This document shows, piece by piece, positions 20,921-57,270 of a DNA stretch of 64,000 nucleotides (within the stretch, counting starts at the first letter, position 1; every line of letters starts with the position of its first letter). The stretch comes from Frigoribacterium sp. CG_9.8 (GTDB taxonomy: Bacteria > Actinomycetota > Actinomycetes > Actinomycetales > Microbacteriaceae). The stretch spans positions 620,001 through 684,000 of the forward strand of contig NZ_JADOVH010000001.1 of the NCBI RefSeq assembly GCF_015751965.1, given 5' to 3'. The translations under genes and the position numbers were made by a program. The notes below the pieces were generated by a model. That model was not told the DNA's origin, did no database searches, and worked only from the letters and a program-made list of their open reading frames with translations.

Positions 20921-22519
20921 ATGGCCACATTCTCGAATCTCACTGACCGCCTCGCGGACACCTTCAAAAACCTGCGCGGCAAGGGCAAGCTCAGTGCAGC
21001 GGATGTCGACGGCACCGTTCGCGAGATCCGTCGTGCCCTGCTTGACGCCGACGTCGCGCTCGAGGTCGTCAAAGACTTCACCAGCCGCGTTCGCGATCGC
21101 GCCCTCGGTGATGAGGTCTCGAAGGCACTCAACCCCGCCCAGCAGGTGGTGCAGATCGTCAACGACGAGCTCGTGACTATCCTCGGCGGCGAGGCACGCC
21201 GCATCCAGTTCGCCAAGACGGCACCGACCGTGATCATGCTCGCCGGCCTGCAGGGTGCGGGCAAGACGACGCTCGCCGGCAAACTCGCCAAGTGGCTCGC
21301 GGGCCAGAACCACACCCCGTTGCTCGTTGCGGCTGACCTTCAGCGACCGAACGCGGTCACCCAGCTGAAGGTTGTCGCCGAGCAGGCCGGCGTTGTGGTC
21401 TACGCGCCGGAACCCGGCAATGTGGGAGCCGAGGATGCTACGCCGAAGTCGTTCTTCTCCGGCGCCGCGAACCCGGTGAAGGTCGCAAAAGACGGCGTGA
21501 AGTTCGCCAGGGACAAACAATATGACGTCGTCATCGTCGACACAGCTGGTCGCCTCGGCGTCGACGCGGACCTCATGAAGCAGGCCTCTGATATCCGCCG
21601 GGCGATCGATCCCGACGAGGTCTTCTTCGTGATCGACGCGATGATCGGACAGGATGCCGTCGCCACCGCGAAGGCCTTCCAGGAGGGGGTCGACTTCACG
21701 GCCGTCGTGCTCACCAAACTGGATGGCGACGCGCGCGGCGGGGCCGCGCTCTCTGTGGCATCCGTCACCGGGCGCCCGATCATCTTCGCCTCGACCGGCG
21801 AGTCGCTCGACGACTTCGAGCCCTTCTATCCCGACCGCATGGCCAGCCGGATTCTTGATCTCGGAGACATCCTCACCCTGATCGAGACGGCGCAGAAGAC
21901 CTTCGACGAGGAGGAGTCGCGCAAGGTCGCCGAGAAGTTCATGACCGACAGCTTCACGCTGGAGGACTTCCTCAGCCAGATGCAGCAGCTCAAGAACATG
22001 GGCTCGATCAAGAACATGCTCGGCATGCTTCCCGGCGCGAAGGGCATGCGCCAGCAGCTCGACAACTTCGACGAGTCGGAGATCACGCGCACGGAGGCGA
22101 TCATCCAGTCGATGACGATCGGCGAACGCCGCCAGCCCAAGGTGCTCAATGGATCGCGTCGCGTGCGCATTGCCCGCGGATCCGGAACGACCGTCACCGA
22201 GGTCAACGCCCTCGTCAACCGGTTCGAACAGGCCGCCAAGATGATGAAGACCGTTGCCAAGGGCGGAATGCCGCAGGTTCCCGGCATGGGACCGATTCCC
22301 GGAGCCAAATTCGGTGGGCCGAAGAAGCTGCAGGCGAAGAAGGGATCGAAGTCGGGAAACCCGGCCAAGCGGGCCGCGGAGAACGCGGCTCTCGCGTCGG
22401 GTGCCAAGCCATCCACGGGGGCTACCGGATCAGGGTTCGGACTCGGCGGAAGTGCCGGCAAGCCTGGCCCATCCGAGGAGGAGCTTGCGAGTCTTCAGAA
22501 AATGCTCGGCCGCGGCTGA
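20921..22519 (+). CDS. ffh: Signal recognition particle GTPase Ffh (SRP54)
   Basis: 532-aa SRP protein that binds 4.5S RNA and signal peptides of nascent membrane proteins and docks with FtsY. N domain residues 1-95, G domain with P-loop GLQGAGKTT at 109-117, DTAGR, TKLDGDARGG and the ASTGE motif, then a Met-rich M domain with the RNA-binding segment around SRRVRIARGSG. The C-terminal tail after about residue 455 is a Lys/Gly/Ala-rich extension. The stop codon lies inside the first unit of a 14-bp tandem repeat. Gene order towards rpsP is the common actinobacterial one, here with inserted genes. Confidence 0.98.
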   Translation: MATFSNLTDRLADTFKNLRGKGKLSAADVDGTVREIRRALLDADVALEVVKDFTSRVRDRALGDEVSKALNPAQQVVQIVNDELVTILGGEARRIQFAKTAPTVIMLAGLQGAGKTTLAGKLAKWLAGQNHTPLLVAADLQRPNAVTQLKVVAEQAGVVVYAPEPGNVGAEDATPKSFFSGAANPVKVAKDGVKFARDKQYDVVIVDTAGRLGVDADLMKQASDIRRAIDPDEVFFVIDAMIGQDAVATAKAFQEGVDFTAVVLTKLDGDARGGAALSVASVTGRPIIFASTGESLDDFEPFYPDRMASRILDLGDILTLIETAQKTFDEEESRKVAEKFMTDSFTLEDFLSQMQQLKNMGSIKNMLGMLPGAKGMRQQLDNFDESEITRTEAIIQSMTIGERRQPKVLNGSRRVRIARGSGTTVTEVNALVNRFEQAAKMMKTVAKGGMPQVPGMGPIPGAKFGGPKKLQAKKGSKSGNPAKRAAENAALASGAKPSTGATGSGFGLGGSAGKPGPSEEELASLQKMLGRG

Positions 22520-22582
22520 CCGAGTGCGGCTGACCGAGTGCGGCTGACCGCGTGCGGCTGACCGCGTGCGGCTGGCCGACTG
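22513..22582 (+). repeat. 14-bp tandem repeat at the ffh stop codon
   Basis: Units CGGCTGACCGAGTG (two copies), CGGCTGACCGCGTG (two copies) and a degenerate fifth CGGCTGGCCGACTG run without gaps from 22513. The TGA in the first unit is the ffh stop; each later unit repeats the same TGA, with frames shifting by two each time. Confidence 0.9.
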
Positions 22583-48814: not shown

Positions 48815-49867
48815 TCAGAGTTCGTTCTGCCGCGGGACAACCACCTGGTCGATGATGAGCAACACTGAGGCCGCGACCGGAATGGCGATGAGCGCTCCGA
48901 GGATACCGAGCAGCGCCCCGCCAGCAAGCGCGGCGATGACGACGATGGCCCCCGGTACCTTCACCGCGCGGGTCATCACGCGTGGGTTGATCACGTATGC
49001 CTCGATCTGCATGTAGATCACGTAGTAGATCCCAACCCAAAGCGCGGGGCCGGGGCCGGCAAGTAGCAGTGTGCTCAGGGTGATCAGCACACTGCCCGAC
49101 AGCGTGCCAACGAGCGGCACGAGAGCGAACAGGAAGGCGATGAAGGCAAACAGAGCCGGGTATTTTGCACCGAACAGCTGACCGATCGACAGGAAGATGA
49201 AGCTCGCGACACCGTTTGCAAGGGCGATGGTTCCCTGGCCGATTACGTAACGCCCGACCGAGGCAGTGATCTGTTCGGCGATATCGGAGAAGCTCGCCCG
49301 CTTTGAGGCCGGGACGAGACGGTACAGCCCCCGCTTCATGCTCGAGAGCGACGCGACGAAGTACAGGGTGAGGATCAGAATAATCACAAACCCCGTCACA
49401 CCGCTTGCGATGCCGACGCCGACCGACAGGAGGCCGCCGCCGATGGTGGAGACGTTATTACGCAACCAGCTCTCGGACTGGGTTATCAGGTCGTTCAGGT
49501 TGATCCAGACCGGCAGGTTCTTCTGGGTGTCTTTGATCCAGTTTGCCTGCGAGACCGTTGCAATGAAGTCGGGGAGGCTGGCGATGAGATTATTCACCTG
49601 GTCGACGATGACCGGTACGACGGCGAAGATCAGTCCGACGAAGACGCCGAGGACGCCGATGAGCACGGCGAGAATCGCCAGCGGCCGGGGAAACCGGTGT
49701 CGCTCGAGCCACGAGACAGCCGGATCGATCCCGAGGGCGAGGAACAAGGCCGCCCCGATGTAGGTCAGAATCGTCGACAGGGACGCCACTGCACTGCCGA
49801 TGCCGACCGCGACCAGCACCCCGAGGCCACCCAGCAGCCCCAGTCGAAAGGCGTTCTGGATCTTCAC
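48815..49867 (-). CDS. AI-2E family transporter (PerM-like)
   Basis: 350-aa membrane protein with about eight helices, the first near residues 10-30 and a long re-entrant central part (ITQSESWLRNNVSTIGGGLLSVG). ALVPLVGTLSGSVLITLSTLLLAGPGPALWVG is the family's conserved C-terminal core. Relatives export AI-2, Na+/H+ or other solutes; no cargo can be inferred. GTG start with GAGG upstream. Convergent with the hydrolase gene (6 nt apart). Confidence 0.93.
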   Translation of the reverse strand: MKIQNAFRLGLLGGLGVLVAVGIGSAVASLSTILTYIGAALFLALGIDPAVSWLERHRFPRPLAILAVLIGVLGVFVGLIFAVVPVIVDQVNNLIASLPDFIATVSQANWIKDTQKNLPVWINLNDLITQSESWLRNNVSTIGGGLLSVGVGIASGVTGFVIILILTLYFVASLSSMKRGLYRLVPASKRASFSDIAEQITASVGRYVIGQGTIALANGVASFIFLSIGQLFGAKYPALFAFIAFLFALVPLVGTLSGSVLITLSTLLLAGPGPALWVGIYYVIYMQIEAYVINPRVMTRAVKVPGAIVVIAALAGGALLGILGALIAIPVAASVLLIIDQVVVPRQNEL

Positions 49868-49908: not shown

Positions 49909-51861
49909 TTACTGATCGGTGGCAACCTTCTCTGCCTGAGACAGTACCGTCCGGAGACTCTCGAAGTAACCAGCCACGGCCTCGCGCTCGATCCGAATCT
50001 GGGAGAGTCGCTCTTCGGCATCCGCGACGAGGTCTGCGCTGCGCTTCTCGGCATCCTTCTGCATTGCCCTGGCGCGAGCCTCGGCATTGGAGAGGATCTC
50101 CGCAGCTTCGGTGCCAGACCGGTCCCGAAGCTCCCGGGCATCCGCTTTCGAGTCCACGTCGATCGCGTCGGCTTCGACCCGCTTCTCAGCGGTGATGCGA
50201 ACCGCCTCCGCAAGCTGGGCCTGAGCCTCCTCGAGATACTTCTGGGTCTGGGCGACGGCCTCCTGATGCTTGGTCAGGAACTCCTTCTCCGCTTCGTCCC
50301 GACGTGCTGTCAACTCGACGTCCAGATCGGTGCGTGCCTGCTCCGAGTCGAGGGTGAGGCGGGTGCGTGCCTCGGCGGTGTCATGGGTGAGCGACGCACG
50401 AGTCTGCTCAACTTCGCGCGTGATGTCTGCGCGCAACTGCTCCACTTCGCGAGAAATGTTGGTGCGCTGTTCCTCGACGTCGTGCTCGAGTATCGATCGA
50501 GCTCCGGTGAGTTCGACGTTGAGCTGTGAGCGCGCTTCGGTCGTCTCCTGCAACAGTTCAGCACGAGCGCGGGTCGATTCGAGGGCCAGCGTTGCCGTGG
50601 CAGCCTTCGCCTCCTGAGTGATGGTCGCGGCTGCGGCTGCGCGATCCTGCTGCACTGTGGCGAGGGATGCGGTGGTCTCCTGCTGTAGTGCGGCGCGCGC
50701 GGCGGCGGTTTCCTGCTCGAGTGTCTCGCGGGTCGTGGCGGTATCGAGGGCGAGGGCATTGCGGGCTGCAGTGGTCTCCTGCTCGAGAGCGGCACGGGCG
50801 GCTTCGGTCTCTTCCTCTAGCGCGACCCGGCTCACCTCGGTTTCCTGCTCGAGAGCTGTGCGGGCAGCGGCAGTTTCCTGCTCGAGCGCGATGCGGGTGG
50901 CTGTGGTCTGCTGCTCGAGTGATGCACGGGTCTCGGCGGTGCGGCGCGCGAGGGCGTTGTGAGCATCCGCCGTCTCACTCTCGAGAACATTGAGCTTTTC
51001 GGCGCTGTCGAGTTCGAACGCGGTGCGCGCCTCGTCGATCTCACGTGCGAGTTCCGCGCGCTGCGCCTCTGCAGAGAGCGCGAGCTCGCTGCGGACGGCA
51101 TCGGTGTCTCGTTCCAGATCGGTGCGCTGCTGCTCCGTGTCGCGAGCCAGGTCCCCCCACTGCTTCTCGGCTTCACTGCTGAACTCGGTTCGACCGAGCT
51201 CGGTCTCCCTGGCAAGTGCCGCGGCGGCATCCCGCGCCTCACTCATTTCACGGTTGGCAACCGCCTTCAGCTCGGCGGCCTCACGCTCTGCTTCAGAGCG
51301 CACCGCAGCAGATTCACGCTTCGCGGTCGTGCGGGCTTCCGCAGCCTCCGTCGCGACGGCACCGCGGATTGCAGCGGCGTCGCGAAGGGCGTCCTGCGAC
51401 ATTGTTTCGGCCGCTGAGCGCGTGCGTTCGAGGAGTTCGGCTGCTTCGGAATTGGCCGAGTCGAGGATGCGGCCAACCGTAGCGTGCGCGTCGGCAACGC
51501 TCTTCTCAGCGCTTTCCATCGCGTCGGCGCGGAGCCGTGTCACCTCAGCCTGAACACCGCTGCGCAGTTTCTCGGCATCGATATCTGCCTGGCTGATGAG
51601 TCTCGTCGACTGCTCTTCGGCGACGCGGAGGGTATTTTCGAGCTTGGTCCCGAGACCGCTGTAGGTCGGGCTTCCGGCTTCTTCGATCTCCGCCTGGAGG
51701 TCATCGACCGTTGCGTGGAGGCGCTTGAGTTCCTTTGAGGCCTCTGCCTTGTCGCTGTTGGCTTTGATCAGTTCGCGTCGCAGGTCCTGGATCGCACTGT
51801 CCACCTCGTCGCGGTTGTAGCCCCGCATCGCCGTGGTGAAAGTCTCGTCATCGGTGGCCAC
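49909..51861 (-). CDS. Scy-like polar-growth coiled-coil protein with 27 hendecad repeats
   Basis: 650 aa, almost entirely alpha-helical. The N-terminus (TTAMRGYNRDEVDSAIQDLRREL) is a DivIVA-type entry motif; residues 30-220 are irregular coiled coil; residues 225-521 are 27 uninterrupted 11-residue units with consensus xxLEQETxAAR; a final coiled coil (522-650) follows. Scy and FilP of Streptomyces, which organise the tip polarisome with DivIVA, are the closest described proteins; Scy also mixes hendecads with heptads. GTG 51861 has GAGGAG upstream and is better than the earlier in-frame ATG at 51942. Identity as a Scy orthologue is an inference. Confidence 0.88.
   Translation of the reverse strand: MATDDETFTTAMRGYNRDEVDSAIQDLRRELIKANSDKAEASKELKRLHATVDDLQAEIEEAGSPTYSGLGTKLENTLRVAEEQSTRLISQADIDAEKLRSGVQAEVTRLRADAMESAEKSVADAHATVGRILDSANSEAAELLERTRSAAETMSQDALRDAAAIRGAVATEAAEARTTAKRESAAVRSEAEREAAELKAVANREMSEARDAAAALARETELGRTEFSSEAEKQWGDLARDTEQQRTDLERDTDAVRSELALSAEAQRAELAREIDEARTAFELDSAEKLNVLESETADAHNALARRTAETRASLEQQTTATRIALEQETAAARTALEQETEVSRVALEEETEAARAALEQETTAARNALALDTATTRETLEQETAAARAALQQETTASLATVQQDRAAAAATITQEAKAATATLALESTRARAELLQETTEARSQLNVELTGARSILEHDVEEQRTNISREVEQLRADITREVEQTRASLTHDTAEARTRLTLDSEQARTDLDVELTARRDEAEKEFLTKHQEAVAQTQKYLEEAQAQLAEAVRITAEKRVEADAIDVDSKADARELRDRSGTEAAEILSNAEARARAMQKDAEKRSADLVADAEERLSQIRIEREAVAGYFESLRTVLSQAEKVATDQ
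50299..51189 (-). repeat. 33-bp coding repeat array (27 hendecads)
   Basis: The DNA of residues 225-521 is a 33-bp-periodic array, highly similar over the middle units (for example IALEQETAAAR, TALEQETEVSR, VALEEETEAAR, AALEQETTAAR) and diverged at both ends. It is protein repeat, not CRISPR: there are no spacers. Confidence 0.9.
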
Positions 51862-52209
51862 GCTGTCTCCTCGGGAGTGATTTTGGCCCATGCGCGCAGG
51901 AAGGCGCCGGCAGGAACCATCTGAGTTTACCCTGAGAGCCACGCGGCACGCCGGTCCGATTCAGCTGCTGGAACGCCATGTTCACCGGCTATCGGCGGTG
52001 ACAGTGAGGCAGCTCTCAGCGTCCTTAGGCTACTGTTGAGCGTCTTTGCCTGTTGCCATCGGGACTTTCTATTCGGTCCCCGGGCCTCCTGGCGTCACCC
52101 GATGTCGCCCTCCGCCGCTCCTGCGCTGGAGGCGGCTGAGTTACGGGAGTGATGTCGCGGGAGATGCCGACCGCCGGTCGCCCACGGCAACACGAGAGGA
52201 GTAACCAAC
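51862..52209. other. Divergent promoter region (Scy-like gene / membrane fusion gene)
   Basis: 348 bp. TAAACT on the minus strand (51924-51929) is a -10 candidate for the Scy-like gene; TAGGCT at 52026-52031 on the plus strand could serve the rightward gene, leaving a leader of about 170 nt before GAGAGGAG and GTG 52210. No gene is evident within. Confidence 0.45.
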
Positions 52210-53970
52210 GTGCGTTTCATCGCTGCGATCATCAGTTTTGTGATCGCTTTCGGGCTCATCGCCTACGGTATCGCCCAACGCACTGTGCTCGCCGAAGCCG
52301 ACAGCATCACCGCCTCGGAGACCTTCACGACCACCGCACCGGTCACCATCATCAACTCCTCGACGCTCAAAGCCCTCCCCGGTCGCCAGGAGATCCAGAT
52401 CGGTGGGGCGAAAAAGATTTTTGCGGCCTATGGCCGCACCGAAGACGTGCTGGCGTGGGTGGGCGACGCACAGTACAACCGCGTGGGTTTTGATCGCGAG
52501 AAGTCGACACTCACCTCGCGCCTCATCGCAGGAGTGGCCTCTTCCGTACCCACTCCTCAGGGTTCCGATCTGTGGCTCGACGAGTACAGCACGACCAACT
52601 CCCTCAATTTCACGGTCAATGTCCCCGACGGAATCTCGGTGATCATCGTGTCTGACGGCACCAGCGCCGCCCCGAGCAACCTGTCGATCCGCTGGCCGCT
52701 CGACAATCGCACGCCCTGGTCGGGTCCTCTCGTTGTTGGCGGCATCGTGCTTCTCATCATCGGGCTCGCCCTGTATTTGTGGGGTCTTGCTCACCTACGC
52801 AGGTCGCGCGGACCGCGCCGGAAGACGCCGAAGATGCCGAAGGTGCCACGCCAGCGCAGCTACCGACCGCGCAAGCCGAAGGCTCTCGCACCGAGCGGTA
52901 GCCGTCGGTCGAATCGGCGTCGCATGGTGGCGATCATGCCGGTTCTGCTTATTGGCGGTCTCACACTGAGCGGATGTTCACCCTCGTCCTGGCCCGACTT
53001 TGGGTCAGGGGCGGCCTCCGCGACTCCAACACCATCGGCCACGGCCCCGATAGTCAATGACACCCCTCCCGCGGTCACCAGTCCTCAACTGCGGGTGATT
53101 CTCTCGCGAATCTCAGCGGTCGCGGAGAAGGCGGATGCGGATATGGATCTCGAGTTGGCGAAGACTCGCTTCGACGGGCCTGCGCTCGACCTCCGTGCGG
53201 CGAACTATGCCATTCGTAAAGTGGATGGCACCCAGGCCGCGCTCGCGGCCATCCCGGCCGGCAACGCGACCGTGATCCTTCCGCAGCAGCAGAAGGCCGA
53301 TCAATGGCCGCGCGTCGTCTTTGTCGTGGTGCAGAACCCCACCGACAAGAAGATTCCTCCGGTGGGACTGATGCTCGAGCAGAAGACGCCCCGCTCCGAT
53401 TACAAGGTGCAGTACGCGACGGCCCTCGAAGCGGGAGTGGTCTTGCCCAAGCTGGCAGCCAAGGAGGTCGGCGCACCCCGTCTCGACCCCGAGAGCAAGC
53501 TGCTCGAACTCAAACCGTCCGCGGTCGCTCTCGCCTACGGAGATATTCTGGAGAAGGGGCCAACGAGCGCGTCGTCGAAGTATTTCGACACCGCCGATGA
53601 CAAGCTCATTGGCCTGATCGGTGTCGAGTACCGCAAGTCGTTGCAGGCGGCCCTCCCGGCAAACGCAAAGATGGAATTCGCTAACTCGGTTGGTCCGTTC
53701 GACAGCATCGCAATCGGCAGCAACGACTCCGGTGCCATCGTTGCGGTCTATCTCAATGAAACCGTGACGGTAACCCCCGTCGAAGCCGGCGCTGCAGTGA
53801 ATCCCGAGGGCCAGGTGAAGTCGCTCTCCGGCGTCACCGGGTCCACCAAAGGCACGGTTGCAATCTACGGCGACCAGTTGCTGTTCTACGTACCGAGCAC
53901 GACGAGCAATCAGAAGATAATGCTGCTCGGGTTCGCGACCGGTCTCATCTCAGCTAAGGAGCTTCCGTGA
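52210..53970 (+). CDS. Two-part membrane/lipoprotein-like fusion, function unknown
   Basis: 586 aa. Part one: membrane segments at about 2-22 and 173-193 with an extracytoplasmic domain between, then a very basic linker (196-238). Part two begins with a complete lipoprotein-like signal inside the protein, RRRMVAIMPVLLIGGLTLSGC with Cys256, followed by a Thr/Ser/Pro linker and a 300-residue domain I do not recognise. No Shine-Dalgarno precedes the internal ATG, so this looks like a genuine fusion of a membrane protein and a lipoprotein. The downstream CnoX-like gene overlaps by GTGA. Confidence 0.8.
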   Translation: MRFIAAIISFVIAFGLIAYGIAQRTVLAEADSITASETFTTTAPVTIINSSTLKALPGRQEIQIGGAKKIFAAYGRTEDVLAWVGDAQYNRVGFDREKSTLTSRLIAGVASSVPTPQGSDLWLDEYSTTNSLNFTVNVPDGISVIIVSDGTSAAPSNLSIRWPLDNRTPWSGPLVVGGIVLLIIGLALYLWGLAHLRRSRGPRRKTPKMPKVPRQRSYRPRKPKALAPSGSRRSNRRRMVAIMPVLLIGGLTLSGCSPSSWPDFGSGAASATPTPSATAPIVNDTPPAVTSPQLRVILSRISAVAEKADADMDLELAKTRFDGPALDLRAANYAIRKVDGTQAALAAIPAGNATVILPQQQKADQWPRVVFVVVQNPTDKKIPPVGLMLEQKTPRSDYKVQYATALEAGVVLPKLAAKEVGAPRLDPESKLLELKPSAVALAYGDILEKGPTSASSKYFDTADDKLIGLIGVEYRKSLQAALPANAKMEFANSVGPFDSIAIGSNDSGAIVAVYLNETVTVTPVEAGAAVNPEGQVKSLSGVTGSTKGTVAIYGDQLLFYVPSTTSNQKIMLLGFATGLISAKELP

Positions 53971-54887
53971 CCTCGATTCCCCCCGCCAGCCGCGCCAACC
54001 TGCGCGGTGCTGTCGATCTGTCTTCGCTGCTGCGTCCGGCAACCGGGGCGCCTGCGCCCGCACCTGGCCCCGCTGAATCGGTGCCATCACTGGTGGTCGA
54101 ATCGTCTGACGCATCCTTCACCGCGATCCTCGATCTCTCGCAGACGGTGCCGGTGGTTGTGGAACTCTACGTCGGTGAGCCCTCGGCCACGCTCATCCAC
54201 GCGGTCACTGCGTACCGCGGGCGTCTTGTCCTCGTAACAGTGGATGCGTCAGCGAACCCCCAGCTCACCCAGGCGTTTCATGCGGCCGCGGCTCCCACCG
54301 TCGCCGCAGTGATTGGTGGACGCCCAATCGCGCTGTATGAGGGCGAGCTGCCAGAAGCGGATGTGACGCAGGTGCTCGACCAGCTGCTCACCCTCGCTGC
54401 CCAGCAGAATGTCACCGGCACGGTGGAGCCGTCGCAGCCCGGAGCCGAGCCTGCTGAACCGGCCGAAATACCACTTCCCCCGCACCACCAGGAGGCGTAC
54501 GACGCGATTGCCGCCGGCGACTTGGAGACCGCAATCCGCGAATACACCACCGCGATCGCGCAAGATCCTCGCGACCAGCTCGCCGTGGCAGGCCTCGCCC
54601 AGGTCTCACTGCTCGCTCGCCTCGGCACAGCAACAGCCGCCGAGATCCGGGATGCTGGCGCCGCCACTCCCACCGACATTGACGCGCAGTTGGCTGTAGC
54701 CGACCTCGACGTCTCCGGCGGTCACCTTGACGACGCGTTCGACCGCCTCCTGACACTGTTCCCCACCCTCGACCAGGCGGGCAAAGATCGGGTTCGCACC
54801 CGCCTGCTCGACTTCTTCGAGATCGCGGGGGTCGATGATCCGCGGGTCGTCGCAGCGCGCCGCCGACTCACCGGGCTGCTCTACTAG
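53967..54887 (+). CDS. CnoX/YbbN-like thioredoxin-fold and TPR protein lacking the CxxC
   Basis: 306 aa. A thioredoxin-like domain (about 50-150) is recognisable from SDASFTAILDLSQTVPVVVELY and the cis-Pro APTVAAVIGGRP, followed by a TPR domain (HHQEAYDAIAAGDLETAIREY and so on) typical of the YbbN co-chaperone. Where active members have WCxxC this one reads YVGEPSA, so it has no redox cysteines and could only be a holdase or adaptor. GTG 53967 overlaps the upstream stop. Confidence 0.88.
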   Translation: MTSIPPASRANLRGAVDLSSLLRPATGAPAPAPGPAESVPSLVVESSDASFTAILDLSQTVPVVVELYVGEPSATLIHAVTAYRGRLVLVTVDASANPQLTQAFHAAAAPTVAAVIGGRPIALYEGELPEADVTQVLDQLLTLAAQQNVTGTVEPSQPGAEPAEPAEIPLPPHHQEAYDAIAAGDLETAIREYTTAIAQDPRDQLAVAGLAQVSLLARLGTATAAEIRDAGAATPTDIDAQLAVADLDVSGGHLDDAFDRLLTLFPTLDQAGKDRVRTRLLDFFEIAGVDDPRVVAARRRLTGLLY

Positions 54888-55008: not shown

Positions 55009-57270
55009 TCAGCGCCGCAGCTTGAGCCAGAGGCCGGCGAGCGGAGGCAGGGTGACTTCGGCGGAGGCCGGGCGGCCAGCCCACGGCGTGTCGGTGGCTT
55101 CGACCGCGCCGAAGTTGCCGATTCCCGAGCCGCCATACTCCGAGGCATCCGTGTTCAGGATCTCATCCCAGGTGCCCGCGAAGGGAAGGCCGACCCGGTA
55201 TGGTCCCACTGGATTGCCGCCGAAGTTCATCAACACAGCGATCGGGTTGCCGTGATTGTCCCAGCGCAGGAACGACACGGCGTTGTGCTCGGCATCGCCG
55301 GCATCGATCCACTCGAATCCGCCCGGATCGTTGTCGCGCGACCACAGTGACGGCTGCTCTCGATAGACCCGATTCAGCTGGCTGACGAGGGTGAGGAGCC
55401 CCCGGTGGATCGGCTGGTCGAGAATCCACCAGTCGAGCCCGCGCTCTTCGCTCCACTCCGACGGTTGCCCGAACTCGGACCCCATGAAGAGCAACTGTTT
55501 ACCCGGATGCGACCACATGAACGCGAGATACGCCCGCAGATTGGCGAGCTTCTGCCACTGGTCGCCCGGCATCTTGTGCAGCAGTGACCCCTTGCCGTGA
55601 ACGACCTCATCGTGACTGATCGGCAGAAGAAAGCTCTCGGTGAAGGCGTAGACCATGCTGAAGGTGATCTCGTTGTGATGGTACGAGCGGTACAGGGGAT
55701 TCTCTTCCATGTACGAGAGGCTGTCGTGCATCCAGCCCATGTTCCACTTCAGGCCGAAGCCGAGGCCGGAACCGCCCGTCGGCTTGGTTACTCCCGGCCA
55801 TGCGGTCGACTCCTCGGCGATAATCACGATGCCTGGATTGCGCTTGTACGCGGTGGCGTTCACCTCCTGCAGGAAGCTGATGGCCTCAAGGTTCTCCCGC
55901 CCGCCGTTGACGTTCGGCAGCCAGTCATCGGCTTCCCTCGAGTAGTCCAGGTAGAGCATCGAGGCGACGGCGTCGACCCGGAGGCCGTCGATGTGGAAGT
56001 CCTCGAGCCAGTAGCTCGCATTAGCGACGAGAAAATTGCGCACCTGCGAGTCGCCGAAGTTGAACACCAGGGTTCCCCAGTCGCGCTGCTCACCGCGCCT
56101 GGGGTCGGAGTGCTCGTAGAGCGGCTGCCCGTCAAAGTTTGCCAGCGCCCACTCGTCTTTTGGAAAGTGCGCCGGAACCCAGTCCATGATCACGCCGATA
56201 TCGGCCTGGTGCAGTCGGTCGATGAGGTAGCGAAGGTCATCCGGATGCCCGTAGCGGCTGGTTGGCGCGTAGTAGCCGGTCACCTGGTAGCCCCACGACC
56301 CGCCGAACGGATGCTCCGCGAGCGGCATGAACTCCACGTGAGTGAATGCGGTTTCCTGCAGGTAGGCGATCAGCTCATCCGCCAGCGAGCGGTAGTCAAG
56401 TCCCGGACGCCACGAACCGACATGCATCTCATACACACTCATCGGGGAATTGTGCGGATCCCGCTCAGCTCGGCGACTCATCCAGTCTGAGTCCCCCCAC
56501 TCATACCGGGTCTGGCCAACCACCGAGGCGGTCGCCGGAGGTATCTCTGTGTAGCGAGCCATCGGGTCGGCGCGCTGCACCCAGCGCCCGTCGGCGGTGA
56601 GCAGCTCGAATTTGTAGGAGCTGCCCGGGGTGAGGCCGGGCACGAAAAGCTCCCAGACTCCGTTGTCGTCGAGTCGGCGCATGGCGTGCCCGAGGCCGTA
56701 CCATCCGTTGAAGTCTCCGAGCACCCGCGCAGCTTTCGCGTGCGGAGCCCAGACGGAGAAACTCGTTCCGACCACGTCCTCGTGCGGTCGGAAGTGCGCC
56801 CCGAACACCTGCCAGAGCTGTTCGTGCCGGCCCTGACCCCAGAGATACAAGTCGACATCTCCCACCGAGGAGACGAACCGGTACGGATCATCCGCCACCC
56901 AGTCCGGTCCGTTCGAGTAGGTCGTTTCGATCCGGTAGGCCTGACCAGCCCCGGCGATGAATCCCTGCCAGAGGCCATCAGCCAGGTGGATGAGGGGAGC
57001 GCGGCCGCCATCGGCGCGAATCACCGTCACCGAATCGGCGAGGGTACGGATGACCCGGATGACAAATCCATCCTGCAGGGGATGCTGCCCAAGAGTCTGG
57101 TGCGGCTGGGGGTGGCGACCCTCCACGAGAGCCGCGATGTGATCGGGGTGCAGAGACGGGAGCGCAGGGACCGTGCTCGAGGGCTTCTTGGCGGCTGGCT
57201 TCTTGGCGGCTGGCTTCTCGTCGGCTGGCTTTCCGCCTGTTGACTTGCCCGCGCCCGGTACGTTCGCCAT
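55009..57270 (-). CDS. glgB: 1,4-alpha-glucan branching enzyme GlgB
   Basis: 753-aa GH13 enzyme that introduces alpha-1,6 branches in glycogen-like glucan. A Lys/Pro/Ala-rich tail of about 32 residues ([19 protein letters not shown]) precedes the N-terminal CBM48 domain; catalytic Asp in [17 protein letters not shown], Glu in [13 protein letters not shown] and the transition-state Asp in [11 protein letters not shown]. The ATG directly follows the glgE stop, so the two are one operon: GlgE makes linear chains, GlgB branches them. Confidence 0.96.

Follow-up and report, generated by a model that had tools for sequence, protein, structure and literature searches.

The window analysed here, a stretch of 64,000 nucleotides, carries on its reverse strand a gene for a long rod protein. 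The open frame occupies 49909-51942 (-) and comprises 677 aa when counted from its first GTG (51942). An internal GTG at 51861, located just upstream of the conserved domain, yields 650 aa and agrees with the residue numbering of the preliminary description. The features of the locus are as follows.

49909..51861 (-): CDS of the rod protein, most likely of the FilP group, 650 aa plus stop; homologues and the conserved domain suggest this start
51679..51861 (-): DivIVA-like head, aa 1-61, motif RGYNRDEVD (PF05103, TIGR03544)
51664..51678 (-): predicted non-helical break at the head/rod junction, aa 62-66 (AlphaFold model)
51223..51663 (-): N-terminal rod part, aa 67-213, hendecad period in another phase (alignment and phase model)
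50212..51222 (-): hendecads without a break, aa 214-550 (337 residues), containing the length-variable part (phase model)
50299..51189 (-): 27 hendecads, aa 225-521 (register reading and periodicity)
49912..50211 (-): C-terminal part, aa 551-650, with most of the conserved cap (gap-free alignment over window 49930-50262; phase model)
48815..49867 (-): AI-2E family transporter, the next gene downstream, on the same strand as the rod gene (PF01594)
53967..54887 (+): TPR protein of the neighbourhood (PF14561), of thioredoxin-TPR type in loci L067 and L024

Upstream of the rod gene lie a frame without a Pfam match, the TPR protein, glgB, and glgE. The homologues in L067 and L024 are likewise flanked by AI-2E (next gene) and thioredoxin-TPR genes, and glgB was found in L067. 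The closest loci were MAGs labelled Frigoribacterium (82-84% identity), followed by records labelled Lacisediminihabitans (60-68%), and other Microbacteriaceae ranked behind both. Two same-genus genomes carried rod proteins that match those from L. profunda and L. changchengi exactly between anchors (see below), so that Lacisediminihabitans is the probable genus. Elsewhere in the window, a 14-base tandem repeat (4.9 copies, 94%) was located at 22512-22579, and a 15-base tandem repeat at 57182-57231, in the 5' end of glgB, encodes a Lys/Ala/Pro-rich N-terminal stretch. The MreB profile gave two partial matches in the protein's own genome, of 59.5 bits (above the family cut-off) and 21 bits, in frames of 659 and 360 aa, respectively.

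The preliminary description had reported 27 uninterrupted hendecads, and this was confirmed, as window positions 50299-51189 correspond exactly to residues 225-521 and all units stand in one register. Position 3 of the unit was L, I, F, or V in 27/27 units, position 6 was D or E in 24/27, and position 11 was R in 21/27. Residue identity at lag 11 was 0.402, versus 0.119 (sd 0.019, maximum 0.178) in 1000 shuffles, and the hydrophobic period was 3.665 (11/3 = 3.667). Neither a heptad nor a 51-residue signal was detected in the window array, with identities of 0.066 at lag 7 and 0.118 at lag 51; with lag 51 at background, a 51-residue heptad/hendecad period was rejected for this protein. The Scy-like ORFs described below also lacked a lag-51 rise in residue identity, so the lag test says little about Scy.

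Breaks in the array were sought with a phase model, a cyclic 11-state profile with equal cost for any shift; the window array served as its starting point, and 213 rods were used to train it. The model gave no break within residues 225-521. The break-free run extended over residues 214-550 (337 residues), and thus 27 units is a conservative count; the longest such run among the rods was 670 residues (L077). Phase shifts in the window rod were placed near residue 214 (+8), at residues 551-563 (+10 and +9, together +8), and near residue 626 (+8), the latter two positions belonging to the C-terminal part, which carries EREAVAGYFESLR near its end. Over all rods, including L052, whose C anchor had been set wrongly (33 shifts) but which stayed in the counts, 98% of the shifts fell at +4 or +8 when those within 22 residues were merged, 91% unmerged, and 96% when merged at lower cost; the value for unmerged shifts in shuffled rods was 17%. 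Shifts of +4 and +8 are those caused by one or two heptads, and +8 also equals a three-residue loss or gain of opposite sense. Because the profile was trained on the same rods, these values back a hendecad/heptad grammar and do not serve as an independent test of it. The heptad-compatible shifts occur at similar places within a lineage.

The AlphaFold model of a single chain, built from 24 sequences, consisted of helices 17-61 and 67-649 (mean pLDDT 77, pTM 0.36). AlphaFold is described as weak on hendecads and long coils (PMC11676326), and therefore the model supports an unbroken helix and not an oligomer. By this model, helix 67-649 would measure about 87 nm. A fold search of the model against the PDB returned 0 matches. 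According to PMC9858780, the period of hendecads lies only 0.03 away from the value for a helix free of distortion, which implies almost no supercoil. The earlier proposal of a straight or right-handed coiled coil without pauses was thus borne out in part: the array is pure and unbroken, a nearly straight course is expected by theory (PMC9858780), and the monomer model is one helix over residues 67-649, whereas the pairing of chains into a coiled coil is something that we infer.

The middle units had been regarded as nearly identical and recently expanded. The former holds loosely, since units 7-15 (of units 0-26) share up to 82% of residues; at the DNA level the best pair agreed at 82%, and adjacent units of the window gene had on average 54% of bases and 40% of residues in common. 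Recent expansion was not supported, as the codons for shared residues agreed in 55/115 cases (0.48), compared with 0.470 +/- 0.040 by chance (shuffled codons). Fresh tandem copies, offset by exactly 33 or 66 nt (at least 94% over 66 nt), were absent from the window gene. Such copies were found in 5/80 homologues, where recent one- or two-unit duplications lie in the rod genes of L067, L075, L076, L077, and L015. Compared with L084, L001, and L002, the nearest three homologues, units 0-7 and 17-26 mostly paired one-to-one, and the one-unit gains or losses were located among the middle units; the pairing was blurred against L060, L087, and L004. Change by whole units is real in the family, and the window array itself is not a recent product.

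Each chain contains one RGY-type motif (RGYNRDEVD, in which the fourth letter is N instead of D), which follows a short conserved segment, while PolyDIV proteins have 2-8 DivIVA-like domains per chain. The protein alone scored 25.8 bits with PF05103, just under the cut-off of 28, and its head scored 23.4 bits with TIGR03544, above the cut-off of 22. In the genome search, the DivIVA domain scored 27.6 bits at the head and 34.9 bits together with its neighbours in frame, at one place in the frame. The Pfam search of the protein itself reported two passing stretches, of which the best covered 33-142 of the 677-aa frame. The profile for DivIVA/Wag31 proper (NF050102) reached 21.6 bits against a cut-off of 260, and a separate DivIVA-domain protein (317-aa frame) is located at G000:C2:536905. 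DivIVA-like proteins are defined by RGYDxxEVD and a heptad coil (PMC9858780). Behind the motif of the window protein, residues 45-110, a range that starts past residues 17-44, showed a period of 3.665 and no power at 3.5.

FilP is described as confined to Actinobacteria, its rod being enlarged by hendecads (PMC9858780). For comparison with FilP and Scy, we recognised Streptomyces-like loci from adjacent FilP- and Scy-sized ORFs. In 12/12 of these loci, the N-cap profile (head and N-terminal rod part, 201 columns) matched the FilP ORF with 51-57 bits over model positions 2-196/197 of 201, and the Scy-like ORFs of the same loci (1155-1446 aa frames) gave 22-31 bits in an internal region only. 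At the C end of the Streptomyces-like FilP, a short motif pattern matched at the class-10 spacing described below, and the C-cap profile (111 columns) matched in 88/297 genomes of the order, which this search covered. Like the window protein, FilP of Streptomyces has a single DivIVA-like head, a hendecad rod, and a C-terminal motif of the same pattern. At one Streptomyces-like locus (L215), a Glyoxalase_4 gene lies beside Scy, which fits the epimerase reported near Scy in PMC9858780. Because the segment before RGY is conserved and the N-cap profile fits the FilP ORF, but the Scy-like ORF weakly and internally, the window protein most likely belongs, as judged from sequence, to the FilP group of DivIVA-like proteins, with one DivIVA-like head, a hendecad rod, and a conserved C-terminal cap.

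The protein had been called Scy-like, and a true Scy orthologue would act as a tip-organising scaffold. Scy too is a long rod, almost entirely of hendecads, but it is reported only in Streptomycetales and begins right before RGYD (PMC9858780), whereas the window protein has its relatives in Microbacteriaceae, a conserved segment ahead of RGY, and an N-cap profile that agrees with FilP of the Streptomyces-like loci (51-57 bits) and does not fit the head of the Scy-like ORF; an orthologue of Scy is therefore extremely improbable. The 11-mers might instead make up a single long amphipathic helix that rests on a membrane or another lipid surface, the arrangement of apolipoproteins, perilipins, and synuclein. 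Sequence comparison with the PDB did match apolipoprotein A-IV (E 0.002-0.005), and Pfam Apolipoprotein (PF01442) scored 70 bits (E 2.8e-19). However, 70 bits lies below the curated (gathering) cut-off of 90, and only 51/297 residues of the array are large hydrophobics, 27 of them at one unit position, a narrow stripe that suits a coiled-coil core; the DivIVA-like head and the kinship with FilP likewise favour a dimeric rod. A lipid-surface helix is thus very unlikely. The apolipoprotein and curli family matches, which were below cut-off, were judged to be period-11 artefacts. Unlike the window protein, Scy also has heptads mixed into its hendecads, reportedly in a 51-residue scheme (Walshaw et al. 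2010).

The length of the FilP-group rod was next compared among close homologues by means of short motifs (RGY, LR.AEEQST, and VAGYF) as anchors, without alignment. Both anchors were present in 93 of the 101 sequences examined, and 80 of these differed from one another in the span between them; L081 and L082 were left out, L096 lacked the N anchor, and L016, L019, L027, L033, and L093 lacked the C anchor, with L019 and L033 running off the contig end. A first anchor pair had placed 64/71 proteins in two classes of 32 each, with 7 lacking an anchor and 10 dropped earlier, and the patterns were then widened. The 80 records are labelled Microbacteriaceae or with genera of that family, and for a few the label goes no further than Micrococcales or Actinomycetota; each species is represented by one genome in the collections. 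The spacing from RGY to LR.AEEQST was exactly 65 residues in 80/80 proteins. The second spacing, to VAGYF, ranged from 397 to 932 residues with 31 lengths and was 1 (47 proteins) or 8 (33 proteins) modulo 11 in 80/80, and these two classes differ by 7, that is, one heptad. The N-cap and C-cap contained no gaps in 27 chosen homologues, the N-terminal rod part being gap-free up to about residue 207. The tails of the 80 proteins are short and had 13 lengths in 8/11 classes. On one maximum-likelihood tree of the caps, a Fitch count required at least 35 length changes for the 31 lengths, all but one of which can be whole hendecads, and the length class changed once, at the midpoint root. One clade of 25 proteins had a single length (437), and nine differing sister pairs showed steps of 1, 1, 2, 2, 4, 5, 8, 10, and 13 units.

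The N-cap profile matched in 201/297 genomes of the order and 181/295 of the class. A wider set of 152 proteins, drawn from these matches partly through automatic loci and partly by hand and not de-duplicated, was measured in the same way. With an earlier pattern 79/90 were anchored, and after the C pattern was altered 144/152; the eight unanchored proteins were L120, L156, L158, L175, L180, L183, and L251, outside Microbacteriaceae (f1) and family f10, and L130 in f10, and L175, L180, and L183 had been in class 10 under the earlier pattern. Outside f1 and f10, 119 proteins of 11 families were examined, and all those that could be anchored (112/112) fell in class 10 modulo 11, with 13 lengths of 197-582; since members of one family owe a common length to their ancestry, these are not 112 independent cases. 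As a control, the tails of 131 proteins (f10 included, f1 excluded) had 66 lengths spread over all 11 classes (8-23 each), and the rods of those 131 proteins had 29 lengths in 4 classes.

Two groups were exceptions to the length rule. Family f10 fell in classes 1 (8 proteins), 5 (1), 9 (11), and 10 (1). Within it, the FilP-group rods of L131-L150 (genus g16) are very long, at 702-1068 residues between anchors, and show additional +4/+8 shifts, apparently a second expansion with more heptads. In the divergent g3/g5 proteins of Microbacteriaceae (L255-L262), the spacing was 246 (class 4) in 8/8, the cap motif was of the WQQQQL type, and the coil from head to anchor varied (95-148) without a rule of 7 or 11; visual inspection decided which residue of their C motif corresponds to the main motif. 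In g3/g5, the expandable hendecad array seems to have been lost or to be missing. Seven f1 genomes had no N-cap match, and two of them (L255 and L257) carry the divergent g3/g5-type protein. The spacing from RGY to GLG was 56 in most proteins of the wider set and 55 in the Streptomyces-like f33 (L215-L226), a step of neither 7 nor 11. It was 49 in f31 (L212-L214, L227-L231, and L235-L249) and 63 in five f13 loci, which are steps of seven.

Taken together, about two hundred related proteins vary in length almost only by whole units, with occasional sevens, which suggests that register must hold while length is free. The window protein is probably a FilP-group parallel dimer with a nearly straight hendecad rod whose length changes in whole hendecads without loss of register. 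By analogy with FilP, the DivIVA-like head may pair two chains in parallel, and the rod would space the head from the conserved C-terminal cap. A hendecad makes three helical turns, after which the core is back in register; whole units could therefore be gained or lost without disturbing the flanks, and rod length may drift or be tuned in 11-residue steps (about 1.6 nm), with 33-bp duplications as the likely supply. The filter is probably purifying selection on register, because tails vary in every class and the span between anchors hardly ever changes class. Like FilP of Streptomyces, the protein would probably assemble into filaments or a polar scaffold with DivIVA.

Selection is the part of this reading that has a serious competitor, one compatible with a FilP identity, in which neutral slippage or recombination of 33-bp units forces the 11-residue steps, register is not selected, and length is meaningless. 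The fresh 33- and 66-nt copies in 5/80 homologues agree with this, as do the gains and losses, which by comparison with the nearest homologues fall in those middle units that are most alike, and the greater self-similarity of longer rods (Spearman 0.65). However, neighbouring units of the window gene share only 54% of bases, so that mispairing should be rare, yet the tree contains a single class change; the caps are gap-free in 27 sequences while tails outside Microbacteriaceae occupy every residue class; and the length of 437 persists throughout the clade of 25 despite rods that are still repetitive (median lag-11 identity 0.343 versus 0.397 in the others). Slippage without selection is accordingly a possible explanation, but not the one we favour. 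It is rather doubtful that selection goes further, to a molecular ruler in which each lineage sets its number of hendecads to fix a distance in the polar cytoskeleton, either the lattice spacing of a filament or the gap between a membrane-bound DivIVA layer and a partner of the cap, with the hendecad as the adjustment unit because it leaves the register of a straight rod intact.

Studies of FilP assembly exist for Streptomyces, and we know of no experiment on a member from Microbacteriaceae. The Streptomyces-like FilP obeys the hendecad rule, with an anchor spacing of 197 (class 10 modulo 11) in 12/12 loci. The window rod is 2.8 times as long between anchors (556 versus 197) and is in class 6 instead of class 10, a heptad-sized difference modulo 11. 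The neighbours also differ, namely the AI-2E transporter, the TPR protein, and glgB in the window, and Scy with a glyoxalase-fold gene (one locus) near the Streptomyces-like FilP. FilP of Streptomyces is described as 37-nm rods that are placed by DivIVA and speculated to be parallel dimers, and it self-assembles into bundles with a striation of 54-60 nm, with bands of 19 and 28 nm in other preparations (PMC6599971).

Stepwise lengths are known from other coiled coils. Chemoreceptor signalling domains reportedly fall into length classes from 24H to 44H that are separated by whole heptad repeats (Alexander and Zhulin 2007); there, heptads are gained or lost symmetrically in a hairpin, whereas the window family changes by hendecads in a one-way rod. 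The coiled-coil arms of SMC proteins may serve as a precedent, since their natural lengths are limited to permitted steps, as tested by engineered resizing, although the SMC step is about 100 residues and is tied to the super-helical nature of the arms (PMC5344682), compared with 11 residues in the window family. Hendecad coiled coils have been called largely unexplored (PMC9858780), and a modulo-11 length rule was not found described in the open-access titles and abstract beginnings examined. Spacing modulo 11 provides an alignment-free rule for checking FilP-group rods. The family offers a natural series of rods that share the same ends and come in dozens of lengths spaced by 11-residue steps, which bears on how straight hendecad coiled coils really are and raises the question of whether rod length sets filament spacing, stiffness, and cell shape.
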